DNA of 64,000 bases, from contig NZ_JAJSSH010000010.1 of NCBI RefSeq assembly GCF_021403115.1, positions 62,001 to 126,000 of the forward strand. Reading direction: 5' to 3'. The translations under genes and the position numbers were made by a program. A model generated the notes under the pieces. The model saw only the letters and a program-made list of their open reading frames with translations, had not been told where the DNA came from and did not search any database. Position 1 is the first letter of the stretch; every line of letters begins with the position of its first letter. This document shows, piece after piece, positions 11,989 through 48,795 of the stretch. The DNA comes from Sphingobium sufflavum (GTDB lineage Bacteria; Pseudomonadota; Alphaproteobacteria; Sphingomonadales; Sphingomonadaceae).

Positions 11989-16239
<4,251 letters not shown>

Positions 16240-16312
16240 GTCTTCAATCCCTCATGAGGGCTAAATCTTGGGCGAAGGGAGGGGCGCGGCATGTCCACCG
16301 CGCCCGACCTCC

Positions 16313-28742: not shown

Positions 28743-29591
28743 CTAGCAGCTCCCGTCAGGGCGCTCGTCCTGCACATCGTTCCCGCACCGCCGCGCAAGG
28801 CCGGGCCGGATTACGGCCTTGTAGATCGACCCCGCGCCGCGCGTGACCTTGTTCCACTCGATGCGGCACTCCCGACATTCGCCCAGCGTGATCGTGTGGG
28901 GCGTGGTGACGGCGATGCGGTTGGCCCGCGCGGTGATCCGCTCGAGCGGCGCGTCACCGGCCGTGTCGAACTGCCCAATGCCCTGCATCGCGCCCGACAG
29001 CTCGTTGTTCTCGATCAGCGCGTCCGTGACGCCGTTGCGCATCTGCACCCCATCGGCGTGGAACCCGTCGGTCCATGTGCCGGCACAGGCGCGCTGCGGC
29101 ACGTTCAGCGTGACCGAGCCGCCGACGCGGCACTCGGTTGGCTTGCCGATCACGTCGGCGAAGCGGTTGCGGACGACGGTCAGGCCCGCGACCCGGCTGG
29201 CAATGATCCCGTCCTCGCCCAGCAAGAGGAATCGGCTGTCGGCGATAGTCACTCCGGCCGCCTGATCGATGACGATGCCCTTCTTGGCGTCCGTCACCAG
29301 CGCGCCATCGATGCGGATGCGTCTGCCCGCGATCTTGATGGCATAGCCGTTCGGTCCCAGCGCCATGGCACCACCGGTCGCGCGGTAGGTTCCCGACCGC
29401 AGCCGCCAGCCCGCTCCGGTGATGACCAGACCACGCAGGGTGGACCCGCCCAGATTGAGCGTGGTCTGTTTCGGCATATCGCGGGCAATGCGGACACCCG
29501 CGCAATCGCTGCCCTTTGCCACCGATATGGTGCTGCCGGGCGCGGCGGACGCCAGCACGGCGGCGAGGGTGGCGCAAACCACGGCGCTCAT
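28743..29591 (-). CDS. parallel beta-helix protein, tail-spike-associated
   Basis: 282 residues. The start MSAVVCATLAAVLASA resembles a signal peptide but may be a virion segment. The body has the short repeated turns of a right-handed beta-helix (GVTIADSRFLLLGEDGIIASR, LTVVRNRFADV, DALIENNELSGA, RITARANRIAV), as in pectate-lyase-like phage spikes. Its start overlaps the stop of the 968-residue protein by ATGA (29588-29591), so they are co-translated. It probably binds or cuts surface polysaccharide. It converges with the SRAP remnant at 28727. Confidence 0.7.
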   Translation of the reverse strand: MSAVVCATLAAVLASAAPGSTISVAKGSDCAGVRIARDMPKQTTLNLGGSTLRGLVITGAGWRLRSGTYRATGGAMALGPNGYAIKIAGRRIRIDGALVTDAKKGIVIDQAAGVTIADSRFLLLGEDGIIASRVAGLTVVRNRFADVIGKPTECRVGGSVTLNVPQRACAGTWTDGFHADGVQMRNGVTDALIENNELSGAMQGIGQFDTAGDAPLERITARANRIAVTTPHTITLGECRECRIEWNKVTRGAGSIYKAVIRPGLARRCGNDVQDERPDGSC

Positions 29592-32494
29592 GCTGCACGC
29601 TCCCGAACGCCAGCCGCGCCTGTGCCGTCATCGAGACGCGGAAGGCCATACAGGTCGAAAGGCATTGCAGCACGCCCGGCCGGGACGCGATTGAGTAGGG
29701 GGCTATCTACGCCATCGACGGCCAGCGTCTTGGGCCGATAGTCCCCGCGCGACGACAGCGCGCCGCCACCCGTCGCCGCCTTGTACCAATCGCTGTAGTT
29801 GATCGCGATGGCACCAAGCCGGCTGTTGCGCTCCGGCAAGAACGCGGTCGCGTCGCCCAGCGTCGAATTGCCCTGCGCGTCGCCCGCCATAACGACGCCG
29901 ATATGGCCGACCTGGTGCCGCATTCTCCAATTGCCGGTGCGCAGCGGCTGGCGGCCATAGGGAATCCCATTCACCTGGCCTATCGTCTTCCACAAGGCTG
30001 GGTTCGGCAAATCGCCAGCGACCGAAAGCGGCATCTCAGCAACAGCCTGATACCAGACACGGCTGGCGGTGGTCGCGTTGCCGTCATGGACCAGATAGCC
30101 CTTGGGGTAGAAGCGGCCCGCCGCAAAGGGAACATCGACCGGGGTTTCCGGTGCGTAGAACCCTTCCGTTTTGGTGTTGAACGACGGGACGGCGCAATAA
30201 AGGAGCGTCATCTCCGCGACTTTGTGCAGATAGCCCTGATCGTTATAGTCGACGTTCAAGCGCGCTTTTGCCTGATGAGCGCGTGTTGGCGTGACCGCGT
30301 CGAACCCGCCATCCGACCCGCAATAATGCATGTCGATGTTCGTCATGTCGGAGAGCGTTCCGTCGCCGCCGATGCGGAATGACGGCTGGCTTGCTGCGCC
30401 AGCCTGCCGCACGAAGACATTGGCGAAGCCCATGCCCATGACCGTGGATTGCTCGCTTCCGCACAGCGCGATCGCGGAAGACGTGTTGCCGTCGACCGTC
30501 GTCTCGACGTTCGTGAAAACATGCCCGTCGACCTTGTGGACACCGGCCAGCGTGATCTGACCCTGACCGCCAATAGGAAGATTGTCGAAACGGCACCCGG
30601 CGGCAAAAACCGGGTACATCATTGGGCCGATAGTGTCGTTGTGATACCAACTCCCGACCATTCGTTGGGTGACTTGCCATGTCCCCATATAGCCCGCGCC
30701 GGTGATGCCTGCCGCGCCGGTCACATTGGCATGCTCGACCCGAACGTCCGACCGGAAGCCGAACCGCCAGATTGCATTGTTGGCACTGCCGGACCCGATC
30801 CGCTCGAAAATGTCACAGTCCCACAGCGTCATATGACTGAGGACATTGGCAATGCCCGTCACGACAGAGCCGGTTACGCCGTCGACCACGATGTTGTTGA
30901 CGTTGGACGAGACGCCCTCGCTGTCGACCATGATGTTGTGGAACTCGACCCGGCGGCTGATCGCGCGCGAGGCGGGCGCACTGCCATCCGGCAGTTCGCC
31001 GCGCATGCGGCATAGCTGCGAGGTCGCGCCCGAAGCTGCCACGATGTGCAGCGGGACCAGCGTCCCGCCCGTCGTGGCCGCCCGGACGGAATAGGCACCG
31101 GTGTTGCCGCCACGGACCGAACCGGCAACGTCGCGCAGCATGATGAAGCCGCCGTCAGGGTCGTTGTGCGCCAGCCCGCCGCCGCGCGCGTTGTTATAGG
31201 CCGCAATGGCCGCTGATGCGGTCGCCATGTTGGCATAGCTGGCGGCGCTGCCGGGGTCTGCCGTGGTGCCGACCTGGACCGCAGGGGCCGCGCCCGCCGT
31301 GCCATCCTGATTGACCCACGCATGTACCGCCGAATATTTGCCTGCATAGTCGCGGACGAACGGCAACTCCTGCTCGACCAGGGCGGACGGGAACGCCACG
31401 CCCTCTACCCAGCTATCCCACGCCTCGCCGACGAACGGATAGACGCGGACGCGGATGCCGCCACCGCCATCGGCCAGACCGGCACCGCTGACCGCGACGC
31501 GGTAGCTGGCGGCAGGGAGACCAGAAGGGAGGCGTCCCGCCTCTGGCGTGTACGCGCTGCGGCCCATAACCTGCGTGCCGGCCGCCGCACCATCGACCCC
31601 GGCGACGCGCGCCCACATCTCAACCTTGTCCCACTGGCGACCCGCACGCGGATAGCGGTGCGTCCCGGTCACTTCGACATCAAGCGTGCCGGCTGCGGTC
31701 ATCCGCTGGTGAGGCGGTGTCAGGATGCGGACCTTGGGCTTAGGGTATGCGCGGCTGTCGTTGCGGACGACGCCCGCATTGACGACGATCTGGGCGGAGC
31801 CTTCGATAAAGCCTGCCGCAAAGGTGAAGACGACATCGACGTCCGGCTGATGGACCTGTTCGTCCAGCGTCACATAATAGCTGTTCGCCCCGGCAGGCAG
31901 GAACGTGAGGTGATTGCCGCCCGATGACCATGCGCGGCGAAGCAGTCCGGTGCCGCGTGCCGTATAGGCCCGTGTCGTCGGCGCGCCGTTGGCAAAGCCC
32001 TGCTTGCCCATGCTCACGACGAGCTTGCTCCAGTCCAGCGGGATCAGGCCGTCGGCAAGCGTCACCTTCACCACCCAGCCGTTCGTGGGGAGCAGGATGG
32101 GGTCGCCAGCGGCAAGGATGGGGGAGGTGGCAGCCGCGAGATCAAGCAGGTTGCCCATCACCTCGACGCCGACGATGGCGTTCGGTGGAGGGAGAACGAC
32201 GGCCTCAGCCGTCAGTGCGAGGCTCCATGGTATGACGACGCCGTCAGCCCCGGTGGCCGTGCCGTTGATGTTCTGGGTGTTCCCCGCCCCGATTGCTGTC
32301 GTTGCCGAGATGACGCCGGTCGCGACATTCAGGGTAAGATTGTTGCTACCGCCCGCCTTTGCATAGGTGACGGGAGCCTTGAGGCCAAAGAGGCCGAGCG
32401 TGCCCAGAACGCCGGATGCGCTGGCAACCTTGCGGGTGAGAACCTTCGCGCGCGGTGAGCCGCCGGAGGTCCGGTTGGGGAGAAAGCCGCCCAT
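29588..32494 (-). CDS. large tail-fibre or tail-spike-like protein
   Basis: 968 residues. The N-terminal third is Gly/Thr/Asn-rich beta sequence (SNNLTLNVATGVISATTAIG), followed by Ig-like domains with Val/Pro patterns. The middle (FIMLRDVAGSVRGGNTGAYSVRAATTGG, split by turns) begins a beta-helix-like region with many Asn, Asp and His. Such proteins contact the host surface. It lies between a small structural protein and the beta-helix protein, all on one strand, after the lysis genes. Exact fold and enzyme activity cannot be assigned. Confidence 0.65.
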   Translation of the reverse strand: MGGFLPNRTSGGSPRAKVLTRKVASASGVLGTLGLFGLKAPVTYAKAGGSNNLTLNVATGVISATTAIGAGNTQNINGTATGADGVVIPWSLALTAEAVVLPPPNAIVGVEVMGNLLDLAAATSPILAAGDPILLPTNGWVVKVTLADGLIPLDWSKLVVSMGKQGFANGAPTTRAYTARGTGLLRRAWSSGGNHLTFLPAGANSYYVTLDEQVHQPDVDVVFTFAAGFIEGSAQIVVNAGVVRNDSRAYPKPKVRILTPPHQRMTAAGTLDVEVTGTHRYPRAGRQWDKVEMWARVAGVDGAAAGTQVMGRSAYTPEAGRLPSGLPAASYRVAVSGAGLADGGGGIRVRVYPFVGEAWDSWVEGVAFPSALVEQELPFVRDYAGKYSAVHAWVNQDGTAGAAPAVQVGTTADPGSAASYANMATASAAIAAYNNARGGGLAHNDPDGGFIMLRDVAGSVRGGNTGAYSVRAATTGGTLVPLHIVAASGATSQLCRMRGELPDGSAPASRAISRRVEFHNIMVDSEGVSSNVNNIVVDGVTGSVVTGIANVLSHMTLWDCDIFERIGSGSANNAIWRFGFRSDVRVEHANVTGAAGITGAGYMGTWQVTQRMVGSWYHNDTIGPMMYPVFAAGCRFDNLPIGGQGQITLAGVHKVDGHVFTNVETTVDGNTSSAIALCGSEQSTVMGMGFANVFVRQAGAASQPSFRIGGDGTLSDMTNIDMHYCGSDGGFDAVTPTRAHQAKARLNVDYNDQGYLHKVAEMTLLYCAVPSFNTKTEGFYAPETPVDVPFAAGRFYPKGYLVHDGNATTASRVWYQAVAEMPLSVAGDLPNPALWKTIGQVNGIPYGRQPLRTGNWRMRHQVGHIGVVMAGDAQGNSTLGDATAFLPERNSRLGAIAINYSDWYKAATGGGALSSRGDYRPKTLAVDGVDSPLLNRVPAGRAAMPFDLYGLPRLDDGTGAAGVRERAA

Positions 32495-34602: not shown

Positions 34603-37600
34603 CTACTCGTCAGAAGAGTATAACAGCTCCGGGGCCTCTTCGTTCAATCGGTCCGCCAATTTCGGATTGAGAGCCACGCCGCCGATTTTCCTCTCACGCA
34701 TGCCGGCGCGCGACCGCATCGACTGCCTGATGGAGCGGACGGTGATGGGATAGTCTGGGTTGGCGTCATTGAATTTCGCCATCCGTTCCTCGATCGGCGT
34801 CGTGTCCTCGTCCGCAAGCACCGCGGCGTCCATGTCGTTGAGAATGCCCCGCCGCTCATCAAGGATGCGCTGTTCCCGGTTCTTCATCGATCGGTTGCGT
34901 TCGTACCGCTCGGCCAGCTCGGCCGGGGTGAAGCCCAGCGCCTGCTTGATGGCCGACGATGCATCCATCTCCTCCATGATCGGATCGCCCTGAAGCGTCC
35001 GAGCGCCCTCGGTCATATACCGGGTCGCGCGCATGAGATCCTTGGCGAACTTGGGCGACATGGTTTCAATGCCCCGTTCGACATGACCGTTGAGCGCCTG
35101 CGACGTCCCGACCCACGCATTGCGAAGCATCCCGACGCCAGCGCCGAGGATTTGCATCGCCCAATAGTCGAACTCGGTTGCGCCTTCCATTTCCCGGTCA
35201 GGCGAGCGGAACCACAGGTCCGGCATGCCGATGCGGTTGGACAGGTCGATGCCCAGAAGGTCGCCCGGCACGCCATTCAGCGCCATGCCGCCCAGCCGGT
35301 GGCCAAGTACGTCAACGACGGCGCGCTTGAAATCGTCCTCAGCATCGTCACCGAACATGAGCGAGGCCAACATGATCGCGATACCGTACAGCCAGGTGCC
35401 GCGCACGCCCGCCGACAGCATCATCATGCCGGTTGTGCCTGCGAGCTGGGTCAACGCCTCACGCCGGTCTGACGTCGTCCCGCCCTTCACGGCCTGATGG
35501 GCGTCGCGGAACAGCCGCCAGAGCATGTTGGCGTTGAAATTGCGGAACACCAGCAGCGCCTTGGCGGTGTCGGACTGCATGACGCGGGGGCGGCTGGTGT
35601 TCTGATAGTCAAAGTGGATCTTCCACGTCAGTTCCGCAGCCTTGTCGATAGCCATGTCATGGGAAAGGCCCTTCTGCGTCCCCATGCGATAGGCGGCGAG
35701 AAAGGTCACTTCGCGGTTCATCCGCTCCGTGTGGTGAAACGCTACGCTGATCGCGGCCATGACCTTTGCCCGGACCGGGCTGTAGGCCACGCCGGAATCG
35801 CCTACACCCGCGAGGTCGTGGGATTGCGTCCGCTCGATCAGCCCCGTTTCATAGGCCGCCTCCATCGCTTTGCGTTCGAGGTCGGTCAGAGCCTTGGCCT
35901 TTCCGGCGTGCCCTCGGCCGAGAGCGAAGTCGCGCAGGGATTTGCTCAACTCCGCAGAAGCGCGGGCCGCACCCCGGCCGGGCCGTCCGTCATAGGCGGC
36001 GAGGATCGGGACGCCCAATACTGCCGTTTGCGCGGTGTTGACCAGAGCGGCGGCAGGACTGACCGAGAGGAAATAGACGAACGCGGCCGACGTCACCCGT
36101 TGCGCCAGCGCGCCGCCGGTCGGGTTCATGATGAATTGGTGCCGCCGCGCCATCTCGTTGACGACAAGACCGGCGCGCACAGGGTCGGGCATGGTCTTGC
36201 CCTGATCGCCAGCCAGAGCCAGAGCCTCGTCAAGATCGAGCGCATATTTCAGGCGCGCGAGCTGGTGGGAGCCATGGAACATGTGGTTGCCGAACGCGCG
36301 CAGGGCGTCGGTGGTGAAACCGGCCCGTCCTTTTCGGTGGATGCGGCTGGTTCGCACCGACATATCGGGCATCGTCTCCAACCACCGCTGCCAGACTGCG
36401 TCCTTCACGCCGTCGCCGACGTCAGCACCCTCCAGGATGCTTTCAATGTCGGCGATGAACCGCGCATCCACCTGGTTACGGAGTTTTCCGCCATCCTGAA
36501 GGACGCCATGCTCGACGTCGTGCCCCGCTTTGCGCATCTCGGCCGCGAAAGCCTGTTGAGGCCCCGTTTTCTCGAACCGGGAAAAGCTGATGACGTCGCC
36601 GCTGTCCCTACTCTTCACGGACACGAAGAAATTGCCGAACCGGGCGAGAGGGAAATAGGGGCCGGACAGATTGTTCGTCTCGAAGAAGGCCCTCATGCGC
36701 GTCATGCGCGCACCTTTTGCCCAGCCCTGCATCTGCTTGGCCCGCGCCAGCTCCTGCTCGGCAGCCTTCACCCTGTCGTCGCGCTCCGCGTCAGCGGCCC
36801 CGCTGTTGGCGATGTCCCACATCTCGGTATCGAACGCGCGCTGCGCCTGCCGGAATTTGATGTCCAGCGCCTTGGACAGATTGTCGAGCAGGATCTGTTC
36901 GAAAGCGTCGGACAGCGCCTTATAGCTGTCGCGCACCTGCACATAGATCCGCTGAGCCTCTGGCGAGAGCGCCTTGAACAGCGGCGTGAGTCGGTCGTGG
37001 GCGACCTGTCGCGATGTGTCGCGCGCGACCTTCGCCGCGGCGGCCTCATAAGCCTCTGTGCCCGCGCCCTCCGCGAGTATTTGGCGATCCAGCTTGGTGA
37101 TGGAGGATGTGAACGCCTCGGCCGGGTCTGCGCCGTCCAGTGTCGCCTCATGCATAAGGTCCATGAGGGCGGTGTTTTCGGCCCGGTGCAGCACACGATA
37201 TTTGAGCCAGGGCTGAGCGACATCGTCTGCCCGCGCGTGCCAACTGTCGCGCATCTGGTCCATGGCCTGCTTCAGGCGCAGATATTCCTGCGCGGCGGGC
37301 AGGGGGGCGGCCAGTTCCGCGAGCAATGGTCGTAGCGGAACAGCAGCGAGGATGCTGGCGCTGCCATCCATGGCGTTTGTCACGAGATTGTGGACGAAGC
37401 CGGGCGTCACCGCATCGATCACGCTCTCAGGCGGCACGACGCGGCTGTAGAATGTCTGCCCGGCACCGGCCGGACGCGCGACCGTGGTGTGGGAGTGGAT
37501 CGCGGCAATTGCGAGCGCCTGCAATTGCGCTGGCGTCACGGCGCCGATCTGACGGCCGAAACGTCGCAGGAGCCACGCTTTCAAGCCACCGAGGAGGCGG

Positions 37601-40600
37601 TCAACCATCTCACCCACCCCGGCTGGAGCCAGTGCCCGAAGCTCGATGGCATAGGCGGCGAATTCTTCCACCTCTTGACCGAGCGGCGGGCCGGCCGCTT
37701 CCACGCGCGCCAGGGCTTGCTGCCAATATGCGGCGTTGCCGCGATCTGCCGTGGCCTCGCGGAGAGCAGCGGAGCGATAGAGCGTGGAAAGACGGCCTAG
37801 GAGGCGCTGCCATGCCGCATCACCCACCAACGGACGGACGCCGGCATGGAACATCTCATGGAACAGCACCGGAAGGGCGGTGCGGCTGGTGAGACGATCC
37901 GCGACCAGGTGGATACGCCCATCGGGCGTGGTCATGCCCTGGACTGCGCCTTGCTCGCTGCTCTTCTTGACCACGTCACGCGCCGATAGTATCTTGCGCG
38001 CTGGTTTGGTCGACACTCCAGACGCAACAGGAGCGTGCGGAGGGGCAGCCCCCGGCAATCCCTTGGGATTGACTAAAGCGTCGGCCAAACCCTCCCGCAC
38101 ATAATGCAGACGATTTTCGCTGGCGGCGCGTTTGAGATCGGCCGCGATGACGCTGTCGCCATCGTCCTTGCCATAGACGGACAGGACAATCGTCGTGCCG
38201 TCCGCGCTTGCCGTGACGGGAACGAAGATGGGGTCGTTCTGGGCGTCCCGCCCTTCGATGACAATCACGAGAGAGCCGTCATCACGGCGCGACGGGAAAA
38301 CCGCGCGCGGGTCGGCGATCAGGTCAGGCAGCGCCTTCCACACCGACAGAGGGACGGCGGGATGTTCGCGGCGTGCCTTGGCAACCTTCGCCCGCGCCAT
38401 CATGATTTCGCCATCGGGCATGCCGAGCGCCTTGAGGACGGCAGGGGTCTTGCCGAGGCGGACCAGCGCCCGCCCAACGCCATCGCCGCGCACGATGGCG
38501 TCGATGGCGCGCGACCATGCATTGGTATCTGCGCGGCTCTGCGCGCTCCGCAGTCCCGCACCTGGCAAGGTTGCGCCTGTGGTGTGCAGGACGATGCTGC
38601 CTGCGTCGATCAATGGCATGATCGACGCTCCCACGCCGGTGTCCGCCAGATGAGCGGCAAGGCCTTCCGTGGAGGTGAAGCCGCCGCCCTCCAGATTGCC
38701 TATGCTGTGCGCGGATGGTTCATCCGCGTCGACCCCGGCGTCCTGCTTCACGCTCTTCGCTTCCACCACTTCGGGGGCCTCGAACGGACGCTCTTCGTAA
38801 AGGTCGATGCCTTGGGCATCCTTGGCCTGCATGTAAGGGATGCTCACCGTGCCGCCATCGTCCTCGGCCTGCACATACCAGCCGCTGTCGTTCCAGCGAT
38901 GACCGGAGACGGTGAAGGATTTTCCGTGCCAGAACATTTCCGTATCGACGGGCGCGCCCGCGCGCAGCCATGCCGGCGGCGGGACGGGGTTCGTCCGGAT
39001 GTCCACCTCAAGGTCGGAGAGTGCCTTGTCATAGCGGGCGAGGTCCGCCGCCATGTGGAACGGCTCGGCCGCGACCGCGCGCAGGCGCTCTATAGACGCC
39101 TCGCTCTCCGAGATGCCTGCCCGCTGGCGCTCGATGTCAGGCCCGAACCGACGCAGCGACTTTTCAAGCCCCTGCATCGATCCACCACGAAATTCCTCGC
39201 CATCGATCTCCATGCGCAGTTGCGGGTCTGCTGAAGTGCCCGGCCAGTAGATGGTCAGGTCATGGCCACCGAACATGCCGAGAGCCTTAGGTTCGTCTCC
39301 GACATGCATATTGTGCGCGGCCCAAGCCTGAATGGCCTCGTCTGCGTCCTTGCGCTTGTCGTGGATCTTGCCGTCGATGGTGACGCTGAACCCGTCTGCT
39401 GTGTTGTCGGCAACAATCTTCCCTACCGTCGCCGCCGTTCCCTTCTCCTCGATCGCCCTCAGTTCGGCGCGCGTGTCGGCAATCAGGTTGGTCAGACGCC
39501 GGGATTGGCTCAGCGCATTGGCGACGCCTTGCGTGTGCAGACGCTCGCGGCGCTGCGCGCCGTCGAGCTGCTTGCGTAGCTTTTCCCGGATCAGGATGCG
39601 GGGATCGCCAGCGGCTTCAGCGAACGATTGGAGGATGTCGCTCTGCTCATCGGCCGCCGCTTCGCCCTCTATGACGCGCGTGCTGTCGTCAGCCTTGAGG
39701 AACGCGGTGATGAACCGCTGCTTGATCGCCAACACCTGCCAGCGTCGGCCGTCCAGCCGGTCGGTAAGATAGCGATATTCCTCGACGGTGTTCCACTGGT
39801 TGCCCTGCCGTTGGCCCCGACCGTTGCGCTGCTCCAGGTCGCCCGGCATCCATGGCGCGTCCATATGGTGCATGGCGCGCAGGTTGCGCTGCATGTTGAC
39901 GCCGACGCCGAGCGTGGCGGTGCTGCCGATGACGACGCGGATTTTCGCCGCGTTCATCTTGAGCGCGATTTCCTTGCGCTTGTCCTTGCTGGTGCTGCCG
40001 TCAACGACCGCGATCTGTTCGCGCGAGATGCCCGACGCCACCAGCCGCTCCACCACGTCGCGGATGGTTGAGAAGGACGGGAAGGTACGTGTCTGGCGGT
40101 TGCCCTCGCCGTCCTTGCCCAGACTGCGGGTCACGCGATTGGAAAAGCCCTGTTCGGCGAAAATCACCTGTGTCGTCTGGGGGTGCCAGTCGTAGATCCG
40201 TTTCACATTATCCACGACGTTGGACGCCTTGCTGCCCGGATCGTCGAACGACGTCCCTTCCTGCCCGGCGAGGGCCTCGCCGTCATATAGACGCACGTCG
40301 AAGCTGGCCTTGGCCGCCAGCCCCTCGGTAATGATGGGCGATTCTGGCGCACCCGACGCCATCGCGTCCTTGCGCTCCTTGCCGGTCATGGACCGCCACC
40401 GGCGCGCATAACCGCGGAGCTGCTCGAATATGACCTTCTGCTGTGGTGTCAGGTCGGATGTGACGTTGATGACCCGCTTATAAGGGCGGTCCTGCGCGCC
40501 CTCCGTCCGGCCGTTCAGCAGTTCGGCGCGCTCAGCTTCGGTCAGCTCATCGGCCATGGTCTTGCCGGACGCCGTGCGGCGTGGCTGCATTTCCGGCATG

Positions 40601-43600
40601 TCGTCGGCGAACACCGTGTCCATGTACTGGCCGATCATGCGGCGCAGCTCTGGGACGTTGATGAAGCCCGCCAGCCGGGTGACGGCTTCATATTCCGCCG
40701 CGGCGTTCTGCTCGACGTCCATGACCTCACGGGCGAAGCTGCCGAACCAGCCGTCCCACTGATCGATGCCGGCGGCCTGCATTTCCTCCTGCATGATGTA
40801 GCGCATCATGTGGAAGACTTCGGTCAGCGTGTTGGTGACGGGGGTGCCTGTGAACAGATGGACGTTGCCACCATTGTTCTGCGCCCGGACATAGCGGGTC
40901 ATGAACGACAGCGCGATGGAGCGATCGGAGGTCTGGGTGTTCAGACCCTTCATCTTCATCCTGGTGCTGATTGGCGGCTTCTTGAATTCGTGCGCCTCGT
41001 CCACCTGAAGCATGTCGATGCCGAGATCCTCGAACGCGATGGCGCCCTCGCGGCTGGCCCGGCTGGACTGCTTCTTGATCGTTTCGATGATGCGCTGACG
41101 CATCTTCACCAGCTCTTTGGCCGTGGGTGAGCGGAGCTTCTTCAGCTCCTCCGGATCATCCCACATCTCGTCTTTGATGGTCGCGCCGTCCTCTACGGCT
41201 GCTGCATAAGCCTCCTCTTCAAGGGCCGCGATGTCCTCGCGTGCCATTTCCATCAACGTCTCTTCCTTGAAGGCGAAGCGATCAATGAGGCTGTGCGGGA
41301 CGACGACCGCGTCCCAATCGTCATTGGCGATCTGGCGCATCTTCACGTCGATGACGGCGGGCGTGAGATTGTCGATGTAGAGAATTTTGGCCGCTGGATA
41401 CATCATCTGGATTTCAGCGGCGACGGTCTTGCTGTTGGCATTGTGGGCCAGGATCAGCGGCTTGCGGGCGATGCCATAGCGGCGGCTCTCGACGGCAATG
41501 CCTCCCATGGTGAAGGTCTTGCCAGTGCCCACCTCATGAGCGTTGAGGCTGCGCCGCGATACGATGCCGCGCCAGATGGCGTCGCGTTGATGCGAGCGAA
41601 GATCGAACGGGCCTTCGCCCAACGACAGCGCCATCCCTTCGAACCGCAGGAACGATCCGTCGAATTTCGGCGTGGCAAAGGCGTTGCGCACCTCGTTGTA
41701 TTCGGCCTCGACCGCGACCCGCCGTTCAGGGTCCGACCAGAGCCAGTCCGCGAACTTCGTCCGCATCTCAGAAATCTTGCCGTTGACCTCCTCGGTCGCG
41801 GCGTTGTCGACATATTGCCCGCCTTCGCTGTCGCGCCTGCGGATGGTAACAGTCTGATTGCTGAAGGCCGCGTTGACGAGCCGCTGAAAGCCATATTCGG
41901 CCGTGCCGAAACCTGTGCGCGCCTCTGGGCGGCTCTTCGCGCGATCATCGATCCGAACGGACCAACGCCCGGCATTGTAGCGGACCTCCACACCCTTCGG
42001 GTCGGGCAGGGCAAGCATGTGGGCGACGAACTGCCCATAGACATCGGGCGAAATCCATGTCGCGCCCAGTTGCGTCTCGATCTTGAAATAGGGCACGTCG
42101 GCGGGGACGACGGCCGCCAGCGCGTCTACATTGCGCTGGAGATGGGTCATTCCCTCGGCAACGGCGGCCTTGGCCTGTCTCAGCTTCTCGCGGACATTGC
42201 CCGACAGGTAGAGGTCGGACGGCAGCACATCACCGCTGGCCAATTCGAACGCGGCCCCGTTGGCGAGCAGCTCGGCCTTGGCTTCGTCGCGGCTGACCTT
42301 CGCCCGCGCCGCGATGGCGTCGAGCGAGGGATTAACGCTGCTGTTGCGCTCCAGCACGAACGCCTCAGCTATCGTGGGGTTGTCGATGCTGGGCGCGGCG
42401 CGCGTCGTCGTGCGCGACAGGATGGCGGCAGGCTTTCCGTCGATCTCCAGCGCGGCAAGGGCTGGATAGAAAGGATCGTCGATTTTCTTCAGGTAGGAGA
42501 GGCCGAAGGAATCCGCGAGCGCGCCGTGCGCCTTGCGGAACGCGGTAAATGCCGAACTCAACGCCTTGCGTTCAGTGGATGGGTCGCCTTTCCGCTCCGC
42601 ATCGATCAGAGCCGCATATTTTTGCCGCATGTCGATGAGCTTGCCGAGCTGCTCCACGCGCTGCGCGGTCGCGGCCTTGTCCTTTACGGCATAGGCGCGC
42701 ACCTCCGCCGCCGGTGCCAGATGCTCACCGCGCACGATAAATAGGCCATCCGCCGTCCTCGTCAGTGCGCCCTCGCGGTCCGCCGTGTGGTTGGCGATAA
42801 AGCTCAGATGCTGCACGCGCTGTTCGGCCTGATAGGCGCCCTCCGGCACGGCGGCGACGATGCGCTGGAGCTGAGCGGCCATATCGTCCGGTCGATGGAC
42901 GATCAGACCCGGTTGGCCGCGCGTGGTTCCATGCCCGAAATCGATCTTGCCAATGACGTGGGCGGGATTGGCGGCATAATATTCGTTGAGGAACACCTCA
43001 CCATTGGCGGTTTGGAATGGCGCAGACCGTATCCAGCCCTCGCTATCGGCGAGGCTGATCGGCTCGGCCCGTTTGCGCAGGATGATGATGTCGGTCACCA
43101 CCTTCGTCCCAGCATATTCGGCGAAGGCCCCGGATGGCAGGCGGAATGCGGCCACCAATTCGGCCCTCTTCGCCAATTCGCGGCGTATGCCGGTAGCCTT
43201 CTTGTCCATCGTGCCAGACGACGTGATGCCCATGACAAGGCCACCAGCGCGCACCTGGTCGATGGCCTTCAGGAAGAAATAATCATGGAGGAAAGGGGAC
43301 AGCCGATCATAGCGCCGGTCGGAAATGACAGTGTTCTCGAACGGCCAGTTGCCGATGACGGCGTCATAGAAGCCGTCGGGCGTCTTGCTGTCCTGATAAC
43401 CCATCACGCGGATATTGGCGTCAGGATAGAGGAGCTGGGCCATCCCGCCGGTCAGGCTGTCCAGTTCGATCCCAGCGAGGCGCGACCGGGCGGCGACATC
43501 CTGCGGCATCATGCCGAAGAAATTGCCGATGCCCATGGATGGCTCCAGCACCCGGCCGCCCTGAAATCCCATGCGCTGCATCATGGCCCACATCGCCATG

Positions 43601-46600
43601 ACCGTTGGCGGGTCAGTGTAATGGGCATTGGTGATGGAGCGTTGGGCGCTCTGCCACTCTTCCTTTCCCATCTGGTCGCGCAACCAGCGGTCGCGCTCCG
43701 CCCACGCTTCCTTGGGCATGGGGCGGTCCCATGTGCCCTGGAACAGCTCCTGCCCGAAGCTGCCCCAGCCGGTATAGCCCGCCAGCACGCGCTGCTCCTC
43801 CGCCGTGGCGGCGCGAGCTTCCTCGCGGATGGCGTTGTAGGTTTCGATGGCCTGCCGGTTGCGGTCGAACCGGGCGACCGGGCCACCGCCAACGATTTCT
43901 AGCGGGTTGGCGATATGGAAGTTGCCGGGACCGGATCGAGCCGGGCTGGCGACTATGGAATCAGATTGGACCTTTTTCGGCGTGTCCCGAAAAAGGTCTA
44001 CGCCTCCGTCTGTTCCTGCTGGCTTTCCGGCTCCAGCAGCAGCTCCTCGCGCTCCGCCTGTTCGCGCGCGTCCGTCACCGGCATCCCCGCCTTCAACAGC
44101 TCGTCGTTCCGGCGCCACATCCGTTCCTGCACCACGAACGCCAGCTTCTCCGTCAGGCCCTGCGCTTGCAGGTTGGCCCACATCTGCGGGCTGTCCTGTT
44201 TCCAAGACGCCAGTATCCGGTCGCGCAGCGGTATCGTCTCCGACACCTCTTCCGTCTTGTACCGGCGATACTCCGCCTCGATCGCCGCCTTGTCCAACAG
44301 GTTGGGATTCTCGGACATGATCGCGTGCCAGCTCCGGTGTGGTGCCGCCCGCTTCGCGCTCGATGAGTTGTGCGAGGTCGGCGGCCGTCAAATCAACAGG
44401 TGCCCAACGGTTTACACCCTGCGATGCGAACTTGTCGCCGTCTTTCTGCGACACGCGATAGAGGATGCTCACCCCGGACTTGCTGGTCGGCACCGCGCCG
44501 CGCATGGCGCTGGCACCGATATGCACCCACACATTGACGCCGGTGTCCTCATGGCGGAGCGAAAGGCCCACATCGCCCGACACGGCAACACCGCCCTCAT
44601 TCTTGGCGACAGGGTTGCCCGGTTTTCCGTTCCGGCCCGCATGCGGCGCAAAACCCGCCGGGACCAGCGTGGAAGATACGGCGCGCAGATAGGCCGTGGT
44701 GTCGGAAAGGAAGGCATCCTTCACCCCTCCGATCAGCCCATAATCCGTGTCGCGGTTCTTGCCGCCTTCGATGGGGGTGTAGCCGTCGATATGCTCGACG
44801 TTCCAGTCATCGCGCAGCGTCCGGGCCGCGCCCGTAGATTTGGGCTTCGCCGCTTTCGACGGCCGGGCGACTTCCGATCCCAACGCGCCTGCTTCCTCAA
44901 CGGGCAAGCCCTCGGCCAGCAGCGCAGTGTGGAGTGCTCGCGATTCGTCTGGCGTGGACATGCCATTCGTGTCGAGGCCAGGATAGTTGCGCGCGCCTTC
45001 CCAGAAGGAGAGGAGGTAGGGCGTGATCCTGTTACCGAAGTCTTCGCGCATCGCCTTGGCGTAATCGGCAAAGCCGCGCACGCCCGCCTCGATATAAGCG
45101 CCCGCGATCGTCATGCCCGCAACGAGGGCCTCCGGATCGACGCCGCTGTTCAGATTGCCCATCTTGGAGCGCAGCAGCGCGCGGGCGGCCTCGACCTTGT
45201 CCGCGGTAAACAGTTTGTTCGCCGCGAAGGGGTCGGCCTTCGAATCTTGTTGGGTCGAAGGCATTGGCGTGGCGATCCCTGGAGACACCTTCGCTTCGCG
45301 GGCGGGCAACTTTTCAGGATCGCTTAATGGTTCGACCGACGGTGCTGGCGGCGCGGGCTTTTCTGCGGTTTCTCCGGCACCCAGCGCGCGGAGCAGCATA
45401 GCCTCCTGCGCCTCACTCCCATCGGTGCGCCCACGTTCGAGCATGGCGGCCCGCACCGCCTGTTCGTCGGCGTCGGTGGGCTGATACGCTTCAAGCGACT
45501 GTCGCTCGTTCGGAAGCAGGATTTCGTGATCGTCTCGGGCCTCCTGAACAGCCTTGTCGATCTGGCCCTGCGTCACGGACCCCACTGGGCCAAGCGTGAC
45601 GTCGCCGCCATCACCCACACCACCGTTCGCAGACTGGAAGACGATATGTCCGTCGCGCTCGATCAGCTTATAGCCCTTCGGCAGAGCGGCCGCGCTGATC
45701 GCACGACGCGCATCGAATTTTGGCTTGCTGCGCGAACTCATCTCTTTGCGCGCTGCCTTGGCGCCAGCCGCGAAGGCTTCGGGATGCGCGGTATTGTCTG
45801 CCGTAATGGGTGCGCCGCTATCCCGCGAGGGCACGCCCAGTTCATTTGCAGCACCAGCGCGGAAGGCTGCACGCTCGGCCGCGGGCGCTGTAGCGCGGCG
45901 GACCATATTGTTGGCATCGACCACAGCAAGGGCGTCCTGGCGGTCTGAAACGTCGTCAGCATCGGCCACAGGAACAGCGGCTGGGGCGGAAGCCAACGCT
46001 GCCGCTACTTTCGTGCCCGCCGGTCGCAAGGTCTGTGCCGGATCTTTCACCCATTGCTGGAACTGGTCGAATGGCATCGGGGTGATGTCGCCCAGACCGG
46101 CCCAGCCCTTCTCATAATTCGCAAGATAGCCCCGCCGCGCCGCGCCTTTGTCCGGGAAGCCGACCATGACTTTATGTTCGTCGAAGCTGCCGTCCTCATT
46201 GATCTGATCGACGATGAAGACGGGATTGGTGGCGTCGTCGGCCTTTGGGCCAAGGAACACGTCGACGTGATCGCCGTCGGCGCCCTCGCTGCGCTTCACA
46301 TAGCCGTAGGTATGCTTGAGCGGGGGCCATTCCGGGCGGCGGCTGGTGCCGGCAGGGTTCTCGATGCTGACGTCCAGGCCACCGATAGCGACATGGCCTT
46401 TGGCGTAATTGCCCGCTTCTTTCTGCGCGTCGGTCGGTTCGGGCAGGTCATTGAGCGGGGAGGTCGCTGCCTGCGCCTCGGCTGCGGCGATGGGCGATGC
46501 CGGGGCGGCGATAGCGTCGATGGCGGCTGTGACGCGCTTTCTCTCGGCCAATAGCGGCTTCGTCCAACCGTTGTTAGTTTTCGCCTGATCGGCCAGATAG

Positions 46601-48795
46601 CGAAGGCGGTCGCGAAGTTCCGCCTCGGATTTTCTGCCGATGTCAGCGGCCGGGTCGGGCCGTACAGGGGCTTTGGGTCGGCTGGCCGGAGCGACAACAG
46701 GCTGGTCGGCTGTCGCAGGCATCTCCCCGGCTGGAGCAATCTCCCCCGTCTGGGGGTCTATTGTCTCGTCGCGCGCGGCCGCAGGGTTAGCGGCGGGCGC
46801 TTCCGGGGCTTCGACAGGCGCAGGGTCGGCGGCGGCAACCTTTACGGTTTCTGCAACAGTTGATGGCGGTTGAGCTGTCAAGGATTGCTTGACAGCTGCC
46901 GGGTCCACCAACTGCGCGTTGCCTGCTTCGATCTCGCTGAGCGGGATTTGCAGTTCCTCACCGCCGGGCGCTTTGACCCACACCGCGTCCTCGGTCTGAC
47001 CGATGAACTGGACAGGGGTTTCGATCCCGGCCGCGACGAGTGTCATGGGGCGGGCGGGCGCGTCGCTCTCCACCGGGACCGGCACATCGATCGACATCGG
47101 CGCGGGGGCGGGAGCGTGCTGCATCGCACGACCCAACGGCCCGGATGGCGGGGGCGGCGGCGCGGCAGGGGGTGCGACGGCAGCGGGCGGCTGGGCAACC
47201 GGCGTGGCCGCCTGCGATTGGTCGGACTCGGCACGCGCTTCGGCCATGTCTTCCTGCGCGACGCGAGCAATTGCGGCATTAACGCCAGCAAATGCCCCGG
47301 TCTGCATGAGGGTGGCCACCGCAGTCTTACCCGCCGCGTCGGCGCGCTCGGCCCAGAAATCACCCCAGCTCTTGTCTGGGTTGGCTATGGCCGTGTCGAT
47401 GGCGTCCTGCATGAAAGTCGCCGCCTGCTCTGTCGGCATTTCACGCAGGAGATATTGGCTCAGAAATTTGGTGAACCCGACCTTGCCGAAACGGTCGGCA
47501 AGCCATCCCATCGGCAGCATCTCCGTGCCAGCCTCAACCAGCCCTTCACCTGCGCCGCCCAGCAACGCCATGCCCGGCGATGCTCCGCGTTCACGATATT
47601 TCGCATAGGACTGGGCCTCGGTCTGGCCGCCCAGAATTGCCAGACCCACGCCGGGACCGGCGACGACGCCCGCCGCGATACCGGGTGCGGTCTGGATGAT
47701 GCTTTGCAGCCCCCCATAGGCAGCGTCTGCCCACCAGCTTTCAAATTGCGGCTTGGCATCCTGCGCGCGTCCGGCGGACCGGGCGTAATCGCGTTCGGTG
47801 TTGGTCTTGCCGAACAGGGCACGCTGTTGCTTGAGACTGAGGCCCGGCGCATCCGGCATGCGCTTTTCCACCCAGTCATCGATAAACGATCCGGCCGTGT
47901 CCTCGAATTTCATGCGGACGCCTTGCCCGACCTGCCGAAAGGCTTCCTTGCCAGCCATCGCCGCACCTTTGAGCGCATTGCCGAGGGTGGGGGCAGGGCG
48001 CGATGGCTCGGACAGGCCACTCTCGCCCGGCAGGCGCTGTAGCTCGCTGTCGCGCCGCGCCACGATGGACCGCATGGCGTTGGGATTGCGGATGGTGGAG
48101 GCCAGCCCGGTATCAAGTGGCTGGCGCTGCCCCATGGCACCCGTGGCCACCGCTATTTCCTCTGCGGTGGGCGTGCGGGAGGAGACAGGGGCGTCGACGG
48201 CGCCGGGCGCGTACCAAGGGCCGAATTCGGGTGCCAACTCGCGCTTGAGCCTCGCCGCCCGGCCCAGCACCTCTATGCCATAGCGCGCAGTCTTCACGCC
48301 CCATTTTTGACGGTCCGTCCCAGCGAAATGCTCCTTAACGGCATCCGCCATGGAATAGCCCTTGTCGAGCCTCTCGCGGATTTGCTTGGCGGCGGCAGGG
48401 ATCGACTGGTTCGGATCATATGGGTTGATGCCCAGACGCGCCGCCGTGTCGTCCAGATATTGCATCACACCCTTGGCCCGGCCCCATTGCGTCTGAACGC
48501 CCAGCGCCTGCGAGTTGTATCGCGATTCCTGCTCGGCCAGCGCCATGATGACGTTGACGGGAACCTGATATTTCTTCGACGCTTCGACGAAGATTGGCTT
48601 CAGGTTCGCTGGGAGCGGAACAGGACCAATCTCCGCGCCTTTGCCCGGCCGCGCACGGTTCGACACAACGGGAACACTGGGCGCGGCGATGGCGGGCAGG
48701 TCGAGCGGACCTATGTCCGGCATGGCGGCATCCGTCGCCTCGATGTCGGCAAGGGCGTTGTCGAGCGGGGACTGCTGGAAAATGCTTTTGACCAC
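34603..48795 (-). CDS. giant polyvalent phage protein (SLT, pyrophosphatase-like, methylase, helicase, peptidase, PLxRFG)
   Basis: 4730 residues in one frame, with a GTG start at 48793-48795 and no clear ribosome site (Met25 is an alternative). Domains in order: SLT-type lytic transglycosylase with catalytic Glu in LAEQESRYN (about 90); Pro/Ala linker; pyrophosphatase-like domain (about 835, GADGDHVDVFLGP); N6-adenine methylase (motif I EPSMGIGNFF about 1755, motif IV NWPF about 1817); SNF2-like helicase (Walker A EVGTGKTF about 2422, DEAH about 2600, QRNGRGQRQG about 2993), as in DarB antirestriction proteins; HExxH zincin-like peptidase (FHEMFH about 3645); PLxRFG (PYFPLARFG about 4048) with hydrophobic helices near 4244 and 4470. 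Such polyvalent proteins are packed in virions and ejected, so this should open the wall and shield incoming DNA. A second ORF is nested at about residues 1492-1599. Confidence 0.9.
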   Translation of the reverse strand: MVKSIFQQSPLDNALADIEATDAAMPDIGPLDLPAIAAPSVPVVSNRARPGKGAEIGPVPLPANLKPIFVEASKKYQVPVNVIMALAEQESRYNSQALGVQTQWGRAKGVMQYLDDTAARLGINPYDPNQSIPAAAKQIRERLDKGYSMADAVKEHFAGTDRQKWGVKTARYGIEVLGRAARLKRELAPEFGPWYAPGAVDAPVSSRTPTAEEIAVATGAMGQRQPLDTGLASTIRNPNAMRSIVARRDSELQRLPGESGLSEPSRPAPTLGNALKGAAMAGKEAFRQVGQGVRMKFEDTAGSFIDDWVEKRMPDAPGLSLKQQRALFGKTNTERDYARSAGRAQDAKPQFESWWADAAYGGLQSIIQTAPGIAAGVVAGPGVGLAILGGQTEAQSYAKYRERGASPGMALLGGAGEGLVEAGTEMLPMGWLADRFGKVGFTKFLSQYLLREMPTEQAATFMQDAIDTAIANPDKSWGDFWAERADAAGKTAVATLMQTGAFAGVNAAIARVAQEDMAEARAESDQSQAATPVAQPPAAVAPPAAPPPPPSGPLGRAMQHAPAPAPMSIDVPVPVESDAPARPMTLVAAGIETPVQFIGQTEDAVWVKAPGGEELQIPLSEIEAGNAQLVDPAAVKQSLTAQPPSTVAETVKVAAADPAPVEAPEAPAANPAAARDETIDPQTGEIAPAGEMPATADQPVVAPASRPKAPVRPDPAADIGRKSEAELRDRLRYLADQAKTNNGWTKPLLAERKRVTAAIDAIAAPASPIAAAEAQAATSPLNDLPEPTDAQKEAGNYAKGHVAIGGLDVSIENPAGTSRRPEWPPLKHTYGYVKRSEGADGDHVDVFLGPKADDATNPVFIVDQINEDGSFDEHKVMVGFPDKGAARRGYLANYEKGWAGLGDITPMPFDQFQQWVKDPAQTLRPAGTKVAAALASAPAAVPVADADDVSDRQDALAVVDANNMVRRATAPAAERAAFRAGAANELGVPSRDSGAPITADNTAHPEAFAAGAKAARKEMSSRSKPKFDARRAISAAALPKGYKLIERDGHIVFQSANGGVGDGGDVTLGPVGSVTQGQIDKAVQEARDDHEILLPNERQSLEAYQPTDADEQAVRAAMLERGRTDGSEAQEAMLLRALGAGETAEKPAPPAPSVEPLSDPEKLPAREAKVSPGIATPMPSTQQDSKADPFAANKLFTADKVEAARALLRSKMGNLNSGVDPEALVAGMTIAGAYIEAGVRGFADYAKAMREDFGNRITPYLLSFWEGARNYPGLDTNGMSTPDESRALHTALLAEGLPVEEAGALGSEVARPSKAAKPKSTGAARTLRDDWNVEHIDGYTPIEGGKNRDTDYGLIGGVKDAFLSDTTAYLRAVSSTLVPAGFAPHAGRNGKPGNPVAKNEGGVAVSGDVGLSLRHEDTGVNVWVHIGASAMRGAVPTSKSGVSILYRVSQKDGDKFASQGVNRWAPVDLTAADLAQLIEREAGGTTPELARDHVRESQPVGQGGDRGGVSPVQDGRGVGDDTAARPDTGVLETGQPADVGQPASAGPDGEAGVRGAGTDVAPERRAVEGGDAGDGRARTGGARGAAAGAGKPAGTDGGVDLFRDTPKKVQSDSIVASPARSGPGNFHIANPLEIVGGGPVARFDRNRQAIETYNAIREEARAATAEEQRVLAGYTGWGSFGQELFQGTWDRPMPKEAWAERDRWLRDQMGKEEWQSAQRSITNAHYTDPPTVMAMWAMMQRMGFQGGRVLEPSMGIGNFFGMMPQDVAARSRLAGIELDSLTGGMAQLLYPDANIRVMGYQDSKTPDGFYDAVIGNWPFENTVISDRRYDRLSPFLHDYFFLKAIDQVRAGGLVMGITSSGTMDKKATGIRRELAKRAELVAAFRLPSGAFAEYAGTKVVTDIIILRKRAEPISLADSEGWIRSAPFQTANGEVFLNEYYAANPAHVIGKIDFGHGTTRGQPGLIVHRPDDMAAQLQRIVAAVPEGAYQAEQRVQHLSFIANHTADREGALTRTADGLFIVRGEHLAPAAEVRAYAVKDKAATAQRVEQLGKLIDMRQKYAALIDAERKGDPSTERKALSSAFTAFRKAHGALADSFGLSYLKKIDDPFYPALAALEIDGKPAAILSRTTTRAAPSIDNPTIAEAFVLERNSSVNPSLDAIAARAKVSRDEAKAELLANGAAFELASGDVLPSDLYLSGNVREKLRQAKAAVAEGMTHLQRNVDALAAVVPADVPYFKIETQLGATWISPDVYGQFVAHMLALPDPKGVEVRYNAGRWSVRIDDRAKSRPEARTGFGTAEYGFQRLVNAAFSNQTVTIRRRDSEGGQYVDNAATEEVNGKISEMRTKFADWLWSDPERRVAVEAEYNEVRNAFATPKFDGSFLRFEGMALSLGEGPFDLRSHQRDAIWRGIVSRRSLNAHEVGTGKTFTMGGIAVESRRYGIARKPLILAHNANSKTVAAEIQMMYPAAKILYIDNLTPAVIDVKMRQIANDDWDAVVVPHSLIDRFAFKEETLMEMAREDIAALEEEAYAAAVEDGATIKDEMWDDPEELKKLRSPTAKELVKMRQRIIETIKKQSSRASREGAIAFEDLGIDMLQVDEAHEFKKPPISTRMKMKGLNTQTSDRSIALSFMTRYVRAQNNGGNVHLFTGTPVTNTLTEVFHMMRYIMQEEMQAAGIDQWDGWFGSFAREVMDVEQNAAAEYEAVTRLAGFINVPELRRMIGQYMDTVFADDMPEMQPRRTASGKTMADELTEAERAELLNGRTEGAQDRPYKRVINVTSDLTPQQKVIFEQLRGYARRWRSMTGKERKDAMASGAPESPIITEGLAAKASFDVRLYDGEALAGQEGTSFDDPGSKASNVVDNVKRIYDWHPQTTQVIFAEQGFSNRVTRSLGKDGEGNRQTRTFPSFSTIRDVVERLVASGISREQIAVVDGSTSKDKRKEIALKMNAAKIRVVIGSTATLGVGVNMQRNLRAMHHMDAPWMPGDLEQRNGRGQRQGNQWNTVEEYRYLTDRLDGRRWQVLAIKQRFITAFLKADDSTRVIEGEAAADEQSDILQSFAEAAGDPRILIREKLRKQLDGAQRRERLHTQGVANALSQSRRLTNLIADTRAELRAIEEKGTAATVGKIVADNTADGFSVTIDGKIHDKRKDADEAIQAWAAHNMHVGDEPKALGMFGGHDLTIYWPGTSADPQLRMEIDGEEFRGGSMQGLEKSLRRFGPDIERQRAGISESEASIERLRAVAAEPFHMAADLARYDKALSDLEVDIRTNPVPPPAWLRAGAPVDTEMFWHGKSFTVSGHRWNDSGWYVQAEDDGGTVSIPYMQAKDAQGIDLYEERPFEAPEVVEAKSVKQDAGVDADEPSAHSIGNLEGGGFTSTEGLAAHLADTGVGASIMPLIDAGSIVLHTTGATLPGAGLRSAQSRADTNAWSRAIDAIVRGDGVGRALVRLGKTPAVLKALGMPDGEIMMARAKVAKARREHPAVPLSVWKALPDLIADPRAVFPSRRDDGSLVIVIEGRDAQNDPIFVPVTASADGTTIVLSVYGKDDGDSVIAADLKRAASENRLHYVREGLADALVNPKGLPGAAPPHAPVASGVSTKPARKILSARDVVKKSSEQGAVQGMTTPDGRIHLVADRLTSRTALPVLFHEMFHAGVRPLVGDAAWQRLLGRLSTLYRSAALREATADRGNAAYWQQALARVEAAGPPLGQEVEEFAAYAIELRALAPAGVGEMVDRLLGGLKAWLLRRFGRQIGAVTPAQLQALAIAAIHSHTTVARPAGAGQTFYSRVVPPESVIDAVTPGFVHNLVTNAMDGSASILAAVPLRPLLAELAAPLPAAQEYLRLKQAMDQMRDSWHARADDVAQPWLKYRVLHRAENTALMDLMHEATLDGADPAEAFTSSITKLDRQILAEGAGTEAYEAAAAKVARDTSRQVAHDRLTPLFKALSPEAQRIYVQVRDSYKALSDAFEQILLDNLSKALDIKFRQAQRAFDTEMWDIANSGAADAERDDRVKAAEQELARAKQMQGWAKGARMTRMRAFFETNNLSGPYFPLARFGNFFVSVKSRDSGDVISFSRFEKTGPQQAFAAEMRKAGHDVEHGVLQDGGKLRNQVDARFIADIESILEGADVGDGVKDAVWQRWLETMPDMSVRTSRIHRKGRAGFTTDALRAFGNHMFHGSHQLARLKYALDLDEALALAGDQGKTMPDPVRAGLVVNEMARRHQFIMNPTGGALAQRVTSAAFVYFLSVSPAAALVNTAQTAVLGVPILAAYDGRPGRGAARASAELSKSLRDFALGRGHAGKAKALTDLERKAMEAAYETGLIERTQSHDLAGVGDSGVAYSPVRAKVMAAISVAFHHTERMNREVTFLAAYRMGTQKGLSHDMAIDKAAELTWKIHFDYQNTSRPRVMQSDTAKALLVFRNFNANMLWRLFRDAHQAVKGGTTSDRREALTQLAGTTGMMMLSAGVRGTWLYGIAIMLASLMFGDDAEDDFKRAVVDVLGHRLGGMALNGVPGDLLGIDLSNRIGMPDLWFRSPDREMEGATEFDYWAMQILGAGVGMLRNAWVGTSQALNGHVERGIETMSPKFAKDLMRATRYMTEGARTLQGDPIMEEMDASSAIKQALGFTPAELAERYERNRSMKNREQRILDERRGILNDMDAAVLADEDTTPIEERMAKFNDANPDYPITVRSIRQSMRSRAGMRERKIGGVALNPKLADRLNEEAPELLYSSDE
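43969..43998. repeat. perfect 12-bp inverted repeat inside the giant gene
   Basis: GACCTTTTTCGG (43969-43980), loop CGTGTC, CCGAAAAAGGTC (43987-43998). It begins at the stop codon of the nested 106-residue ORF in the direction of transcription. In the giant frame it encodes DLFRDTPKKVQ. Such a hairpin is normally found between genes, so it may mark an old gene boundary, or work as an RNA element. Confidence 0.75.
43998..44318 (-). CDS. 106-residue ORF overprinted in another frame of the giant gene
   Basis: ATG 44316-44318 to TAG 43998-44000, same strand, different frame. The peptide has normal protein composition: MSENPNLLDKAAIEAEYRRY, TIPLRDRILASWKQDSP, LTEKLAFVVQERMWRRNDEL, DAREQAEREELLLEPESQ. 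It is soluble and helical and resembles small proteins found next to polyvalent-protein genes in alphaproteobacterial plasmids and phages (recalled pattern, not searched). Across the same bases the giant frame encodes only Gly/Ala/Asp/Arg-rich low-complexity sequence (GQGGDRGGVSPVQDGRGVGD and on), as expected of an out-of-frame reading. No strong ribosome site is near its ATG. Either the two are expressed together or a fusion has trapped a former separate gene. Confidence 0.6.
   Translation of the reverse strand: MSENPNLLDKAAIEAEYRRYKTEEVSETIPLRDRILASWKQDSPQMWANLQAQGLTEKLAFVVQERMWRRNDELLKAGMPVTDAREQAEREELLLEPESQQEQTEA

Follow-up and report, generated by a model that had tools for sequence, protein, structure and literature searches.

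The window analysed here, a stretch of 64,000 nucleotides of a Sphingobium sufflavum contig, carries a giant open reading frame (ORF) of 4730 aa, located at positions 34603-48795 of the minus strand and opened by a GTG codon. Domain searches of the giant returned a lytic transglycosylase (SLT) domain (giant residues 69-147; 48355-48591, minus strand), an InPase domain (residues 789-917; 46045-46431, minus strand), MuF_C, Helicase_C, LPD39 and PLxRFG (tail-700) domains and a weaker SNF2 match, while its best PHROG match is phrog_10089, 'DarB-like antirestriction'. The methyltransferase region covers giant residues 1630-1950, approximately (42946-43908, minus strand), and the SNF2/helicase region residues 2398-3005, approximately (39781-41604, minus strand). 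DarB of phage P1 aligns with both the methylase and the helicase parts of the giant, the alignment starting only at the methylase (DarB residue 91 against giant residue 1725). A methylase is thus fused to an SNF2/SF2 helicase together with other polyvalent domains, and the giant is, by its predicted domain content, a DarB-like polyvalent antirestriction protein (a family treated in PMC5512222), which is predicted to protect injected DNA from type I restriction. The genes upstream of the giant are major head, tail-fibre and internal virion genes; hence the window carries a prophage in which the giant is placed after the virion genes. A 968-aa ORF of the window (29588-32494, minus strand) was matched by neither Pfam nor PHROG at the thresholds applied.

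Directly upstream of the methyltransferase region, an ORF of 106 aa with an ATG start and a TAG stop occupies positions 43998-44318 of the minus strand. This ORF begins at position 2 of giant codon 1493 and is therefore shifted by +1 relative to the giant frame, its whole length being contained within a longer coding gene of the same strand. The first-pass annotation had claimed such an ORF, in a different frame from the giant and spanning a Gly/Ala/Arg-rich low-complexity part of the giant protein, and it was correct on both counts: Gly, Ala and Arg make up 51% of the giant-frame stretch over the nested ORF, versus 31% overall, which is the highest value among 4623 windows of the same length, and the entropy of this stretch is about the lowest among them. 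Across 43998-44318, the giant-frame translation is an open linker whose residues are not conserved. The length of the nested ORF alone is not beyond chance in such a GC-rich giant; the giant contains seven +1 stretches that stay open for 107 codons or more, compared to 7.3 expected from synonymous shuffling. What does exceed chance is the combination of same-phase relatives, inverted codon-phase substitution, an own ribosome-binding site and the avoidance of stops in the giant frame.

A perfect inverted repeat (43969-43998; 12-bp stem, 6-base loop) is situated at the end of the nested ORF, sharing one base with its stop codon, and contributes extra residues to the linker of the giant. A 20-base piece of this repeat occurs only once in the genome, and its 10-base half-sites are missing from four related loci (L003, L004, L005 and L029).

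A codon alignment of five giants revealed an excess of third-position differences outside the nested stretch, which is reversed inside it. Between the window and L003, the differences at giant codon positions 1/2/3 amount to 63/57/157 upstream of the nested stretch (299 codons), 22/12/10 within it (105 codons) and 25/24/112 in the methylase (321 codons), and the same pattern was obtained with L004, L005 and L029. When measured in sliding windows, the third-position share of 0.19 inside the nested stretch is the lowest along the gene, the 704 windows outside showing a mean of 0.58 and a minimum of 0.36. To estimate dN/dS, 24 pairs were used, no two of which have a sequence in common (2500 codons), and each change was classified simultaneously for the two frames; the ratio was 0.31 for the nested ORF (bootstrap 0.25-0.37) and 1.22 for the giant over the same stretch (bootstrap 1.05-1.43). 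Estimates from sites that are synonymous in both frames, which are wide as only 53.5 such sites exist, were 0.49 (0.24-1.03) for the ORF and 1.91 (1.00-3.99) for the giant. Judged from these substitution patterns, the nested frame is under purifying selection. The first-pass annotation had expected the small ORF to be constrained and the giant merely to read through it, and had called for codon-phase rates in both frames; these rates place the constraint mainly in the small frame (dN/dS of 0.31 versus 1.22), and constraint in the giant frame only is rejected on the same figures.

The openness of the giant frame and the start of the nested ORF were assessed in 68 dereplicated members of the family, leaving out L016, L066 and L085, two loci that run off their contigs (L075 and L086) and two that are not nested (L018 and L020). 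Giant-frame stops within the nested stretch numbered 0, compared to 78.9 ± 6.6 expected from synonymous shuffling, although this openness is partly built in, since the members were picked as nested, with few dropped for lacking nesting. Similarly, a nested codon ending in T before AA, AG or GA, which equals a giant-frame stop, was found in 0 of 1511 instances versus 360 of 3163 elsewhere. Some of these members sit in loci with a GC content of only 42%. The lack of stops implies that the giant is read through the nested stretch while its residues there drift, and a constrained small frame combined with a stop-free giant frame would make the giant stretch an unconstrained linker. The suggestion of real dual coding therefore holds as far as both frames are kept open, but not for the giant residues, which are not conserved there.

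The start codon of the nested ORF is ATG in 63 and GTG in five of the 68 members. Finding a start codon there is to some extent a product of the procedure, since the codon nearest the aligned N-terminus was chosen (manually in nine cases, including L016, which was later excluded), irrespective of any Shine-Dalgarno signal. A Shine-Dalgarno duplex energy of -4 or better was calculated for 66 of the 68 members, compared to 22% of 680 control ATGs taken from that frame elsewhere in these giants (p = 1.6e-29). In the window, a GGAG motif with a duplex energy of -5.8 is located at 44332-44335 (minus strand), upstream of the nested ATG. Among 12 further ORFs, recognised by place only or as TnpV (both described below), 11 possess a site of -5 or better, the exception being the +1 ORF of phage BKO1, for which no ribosome-binding site was observed. 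The nested ORF is thus equipped with a putative translation start signal of its own.

Searches with the 106-aa protein produced no Pfam, PHROG or NCBIfam match. Relatives were identified at seven loci in viral contigs (ten, including these seven, in a later search), at seven loci in genome contigs and in two Pseudomonas phage records, one of which was opened. At 15 of 18 loci with window-type relatives, the small ORF occurs in the same +1 phase within a long ORF that is open on both sides. The exceptions are a free copy in an apparent element remnant of Rhodoblastus (L016), where the giant frame contains two stops and a stretch recognised by eye as tRNA-like lies nearby, an in-frame fusion of the family domain in Skermanella (L018) and a relic with a broken N-terminal part (L020). 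In the Skermanella contig, the small domain (6871-7465) is in frame with, and N-terminal to, a domain similar to giant residues 1207-1269; this contig, which also carries a DUF927/Toprim gene, presents another architecture of the nested family.

A separate retrieval employing the methylase region alone yielded 15 viral loci, five of which were contigs already seen, and 13 of the 15 harbour the nested family in the same phase. It is missing at L032, where only 335 bases are available upstream, and at L036, where a giant-frame stop occurs just before the match. Thirteen annotated phage records were opened from the 60 listed of 102 matched, and nine of these contain the nested family as detected by HMM (PBC5 only at E 0.05 and VvAW1 at 0.01), while in the remaining four (BcepIL02, JC1, Y7 and 8P) the site is occupied by a +1 ORF without a match. 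On position alone, a +1 ORF was likewise recognised at the equivalent place in Bacteroides phage BKO1-TP3 and in a Helicobacter prophage; no +1 ORF was seen at the equivalent site of the Streptococcus rum element. The ORF of the Helicobacter ganmani prophage (L052, 5516-5917; 134 aa), from a locus of 38% GC, is preceded by a strong ribosome-binding site and displays no detectable sequence similarity to the nested family.

A second subfamily (alignment A3, PEp14 type) was encountered in phages of Erwinia, Klebsiella, Agrobacterium, Vibrio and Microcystis, and is linked to the window type by profile comparison (E 1.5e-6 for the pair, probability 90%). Scanning viral contigs with this type revealed 67 loci, some of them the same phages as in the annotated records, and +1-phase nesting in 63. 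The other four comprise decayed giant fragments (L066), two contig ends (L075 and L086) and, again, PBC5 (L085). In this Sinorhizobium phage (L043/L085), the giant is split: its upstream part shares the frame of the small domain, and the methylase is read in a different one. The frame change, about 45 bases ahead of the start of the small ORF, could reflect natural variation or else a sequencing error in one old record. The in-frame upstream giant of PBC5, together with the in-frame fusion in L018, makes a fused product possible in some elements. The plasmid collection gave no match (tblastn, three queries), and the genome panels (298, 385 and 398 genomes, own included) only one weak match beyond the own genome (G279, E 0.009, 33%). 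Homologues of the 106-residue protein, the absence of which had been named as evidence against a real gene, are present in many phages, and the same predicted nested gene is found at the same place and in the same phase in dozens of them.

A possible link to a described family is offered by TnpV (PF14198). The window ORF itself does not match TnpV, for which the curated cut-off is 27 bits; however, 20 of 49 nested proteins match it at E<=0.1, versus 2 of 49 for each of the next families. Among the matches listed, L121 is the only nested phage relative to pass the curated cut-off (30.9 versus 27 bits). A profile built from six TnpV ORFs recovered 15 of the 49 members at >=12 bits, compared to none of 980 shuffles, and also matched the JC1 and BcepIL02 ORFs (E 3.5e-4 and 6e-4, respectively). 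Using hhalign, the A3 type gave a weak match to TnpV (P 0.0057, probability 6%) and the window type nothing useful, and a scan of viral contigs with one TnpV protein returned no match. The two families share a small size and, by eye, a similar KExxPxxYxxLxxxGxL stretch, whereas the C-terminal part of TnpV is unlike that of the nested family and TnpV also occurs in non-nested form.

Six TnpV records (L053 and L125-L129) were inspected, all chosen because they carry a methylase too, and in each of the six a methylase-SNF2 ORF encloses the TnpV ORF in the +1 phase. The methylase frame of L053 opens only 69 codons ahead of TnpV, so the real start of the methylase ORF could be further down, and only 64 codons are present upstream of TnpV in L129. 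At least 13 of 25 TnpV records also appear among the methylase matches listed. In the Streptococcus rum element, TnpV is non-nested and follows the SNF2 gene in two pieces; we take TnpV-bearing elements such as this one to be conjugative elements of Firmicutes. The giant-frame linker over TnpV displays, by eye, a low-complexity pattern in some of the six records (EERRLPDS..., DEH...GGGSD), which is possibly a mere shadow of TnpV conservation.

The AlphaFold2 model of the nested protein, based on 49 sequences, consists of five helices (pLDDT 84.5, pTM 0.74). Trp39, Pro44, Gly78 and Ala84 are invariant across these sequences, and most of the nested proteins are acidic (pI 4.3-6.9, with a median of 5.1; 4.6 for the window protein). 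A Foldseek search of the model against the PDB gave a best E of 3.0, and the best VIA-align Z of 5.6 (2apl, 66 residues, 3.5 Å) is within the noise stated for helical models. In a viral structure library, the best match was Q8W6J4_2 (E 0.059, probability 1.00, query TM 0.59), which we suspect, judging by length (1093; phrog_938 is 2185 long), to be the second half of PBC5 orf33. There is accordingly no convincing fold match among the solved or viral structures, which does not in itself imply a new fold. A PDB sequence search with profile A2 produced no match, PADLOC matched none of the 49 nested proteins, and none of the 15 Pfam families matched by the 49 members (E<=0.1) is named a nuclease.

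Overlapping genes of several kinds are available for comparison. The Rz/Rz1 spanin genes differ from the nested family in their proteins and function. The likeness resides in the gene arrangement, a small phage gene being embedded entirely within another coding sequence (PMC9144972). The antirestriction gene ardD overlaps tniA of Tn5053 (PMC3533173), but on the complementary strand and inside a transposase gene. The HNH gene of phage ShiLan is reported to lie hidden, out of frame, within a phage methylase gene, the host frame remaining stop-free (PMC11855218). The ShiLan gene is a homing endonuclease insertion, whereas the nested family lacks a nuclease match and occurs in 13 of 15 methylase-retrieved relatives. 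P1 encodes a small protein, Ulx, beside its DarB gene, described as one of the internal Dar proteins and an internal virion protein (PMC9024508, PMC12810830), which 'Aids DarB localization' (PMC9024508), implying that DarB can need small partners. The Ulx gene is separate, downstream of darB and un-nested. As a homologue, Ulx was discarded on the lack of similarity (HMM E 0.16 at best, score below zero), P1 DdrA likewise found no support, and no +1 ORF resembling the nested family was seen in P1 darB.

We consider it very probable, on the strength of the relatives, dN/dS values and predicted helical structure, that the 106-aa ORF encodes a protein and is a gene lying entirely within the giant, in its +1 frame, where the linker immediately precedes the methyltransferase. 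Ribosomes would start independently at the conserved internal ATG or GTG with its own Shine-Dalgarno site, so that one message would give both the giant and a separate, acidic five-helix protein of 12 kDa. This gene accompanies the methylase-SNF2 module in virion giants as well as in records bearing TnpV, which points to a helper function for the module. The protein would then be a TnpV-related accessory factor assisting the module in shielding incoming DNA from restriction, in a role comparable to that of Ulx with DarB, a proposal drawn from neighbourhood and analogy which we put forward tentatively. Such a helper might assist packaging or folding, or be a subunit of the methylase.

As to its origin, a small gene beside a methylase-SNF2 gene was probably swallowed when the polyvalent gene on its upstream side grew through it without losing its own frame. 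As the giant residues are a by-product, the small gene is probably the older tenant, through which the giant was subsequently extended. The first-pass annotation had offered three genes fused into one as an alternative to dual coding; as an origin this is plausible, although no intact three-gene arrangement was found. The non-nested TnpV beside an SNF2 gene (one record), the free copy in L016 and the alignment of DarB from the methylase onward all bear on it. A wider and somewhat more speculative version would see a single ancient TnpV-like gene lineage, overprinted in the +1 frame in the linker ahead of the methylase-SNF2 module of antirestriction genes, in phages and other mobile elements of several bacterial phyla. 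Its product would be a dedicated subunit of the module, and the giants would have grown by reading through the gene, the low-complexity linker being its shadow.

Other explanations must be weighed against a nested helper gene with its own start. A chance open frame in GC-rich DNA might be expected where about seven such +1 stretches are predicted for the giant, and length alone would not have rejected it, but it is refuted by codon-phase substitution, and the Shine-Dalgarno sites, stop avoidance, dN/dS and the members in loci of 42% GC leave it a negligible probability. Were ribosomes translating the giant instead to enter the small frame through programmed +1 frameshifting, the N-terminal part of the giant would be tailed by the small domain, much as the upstream giant of PBC5 runs in frame into the small ORF and the Skermanella domain is fused in frame to a giant-type domain. 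We regard this as very unlikely, given that 66 of 68 members have their own Shine-Dalgarno site and that in 20 of 88 an in-frame stop precedes the start by just 1-5 codons, so that slippage would have hardly any space in which to occur, quite apart from the possible sequencing error in the single old PBC5 record.

The rivals to the role are less remote. The nested gene might encode a free-standing factor unrelated to the methylase, e.g., a regulator, or a selfish passenger sheltering in a linker that tolerates it, as the unconstrained host linker (giant dN/dS 1.22), the L016 copy surviving in a remnant near a tRNA-like stretch, the two methylase loci without the family and the known precedent of a hidden out-of-frame gene in a phage methylase (PMC11855218) would allow. 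The family is nevertheless present at the other 13 of 15 methylase-retrieved loci, the two misses being accompanied by a short upstream sequence (335 bases) or a giant-frame stop; no nuclease is named among the matched Pfam families, and the same site and phase recur in distant phages and TnpV records, all of which renders such a factor unlikely, if still a serious contender. A capsid-loading chaperone, i.e., a small protein that brings the giant into the virion, appears slightly less likely again, as TnpV relatives are also carried by mobile elements, the Streptococcus rum element among them (the record of which was deposited as a phage), and such elements presumably transfer by conjugation without a capsid. 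In its favour are the location of the giant after virion genes, the DarB-like gp69 among the structural proteins of JC1 (PMC9144972) and the assistance of Ulx in DarB localization (PMC9024508).

In 21 phage records, the feature annotated under the nested match is a long CDS and never a separate small gene; in PBC5, the small domain is part of the annotated orf33 (in frame), and in Itty13 the CDS annotated at the site is antisense. The conservation of the nested gene in dozens of phages implies that phage genome maps are probably missing a gene. Nested genes, TnpV and DarB are each known already, while no description of a nested gene in DarB-like or methylase-SNF2 genes was found in open-licence papers (titles and abstract starts). 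DarB-like genes can fill over a fifth of a phage genome, accounting for 22.3% of the CSP3 genome and 22.1% of that of JC1 (PMC9144972). If our reading is true, phage antirestriction has a conserved component that escaped notice, and constraint on another gene accounts for some of the sequence of a giant protein. The locus furthermore provides a clean natural example of same-strand overprinting with selection measurable in both frames, and the partner needs of the methylase-helicase dyad are testable, since the nested start can be removed with the giant residues unchanged. Elsewhere in the window, a 1390-aa open frame (12085-16257, plus strand) runs antisense to nearly all of an rpoC-like gene (11989-16239, minus strand), and is possibly an effect of GC content and codon usage.
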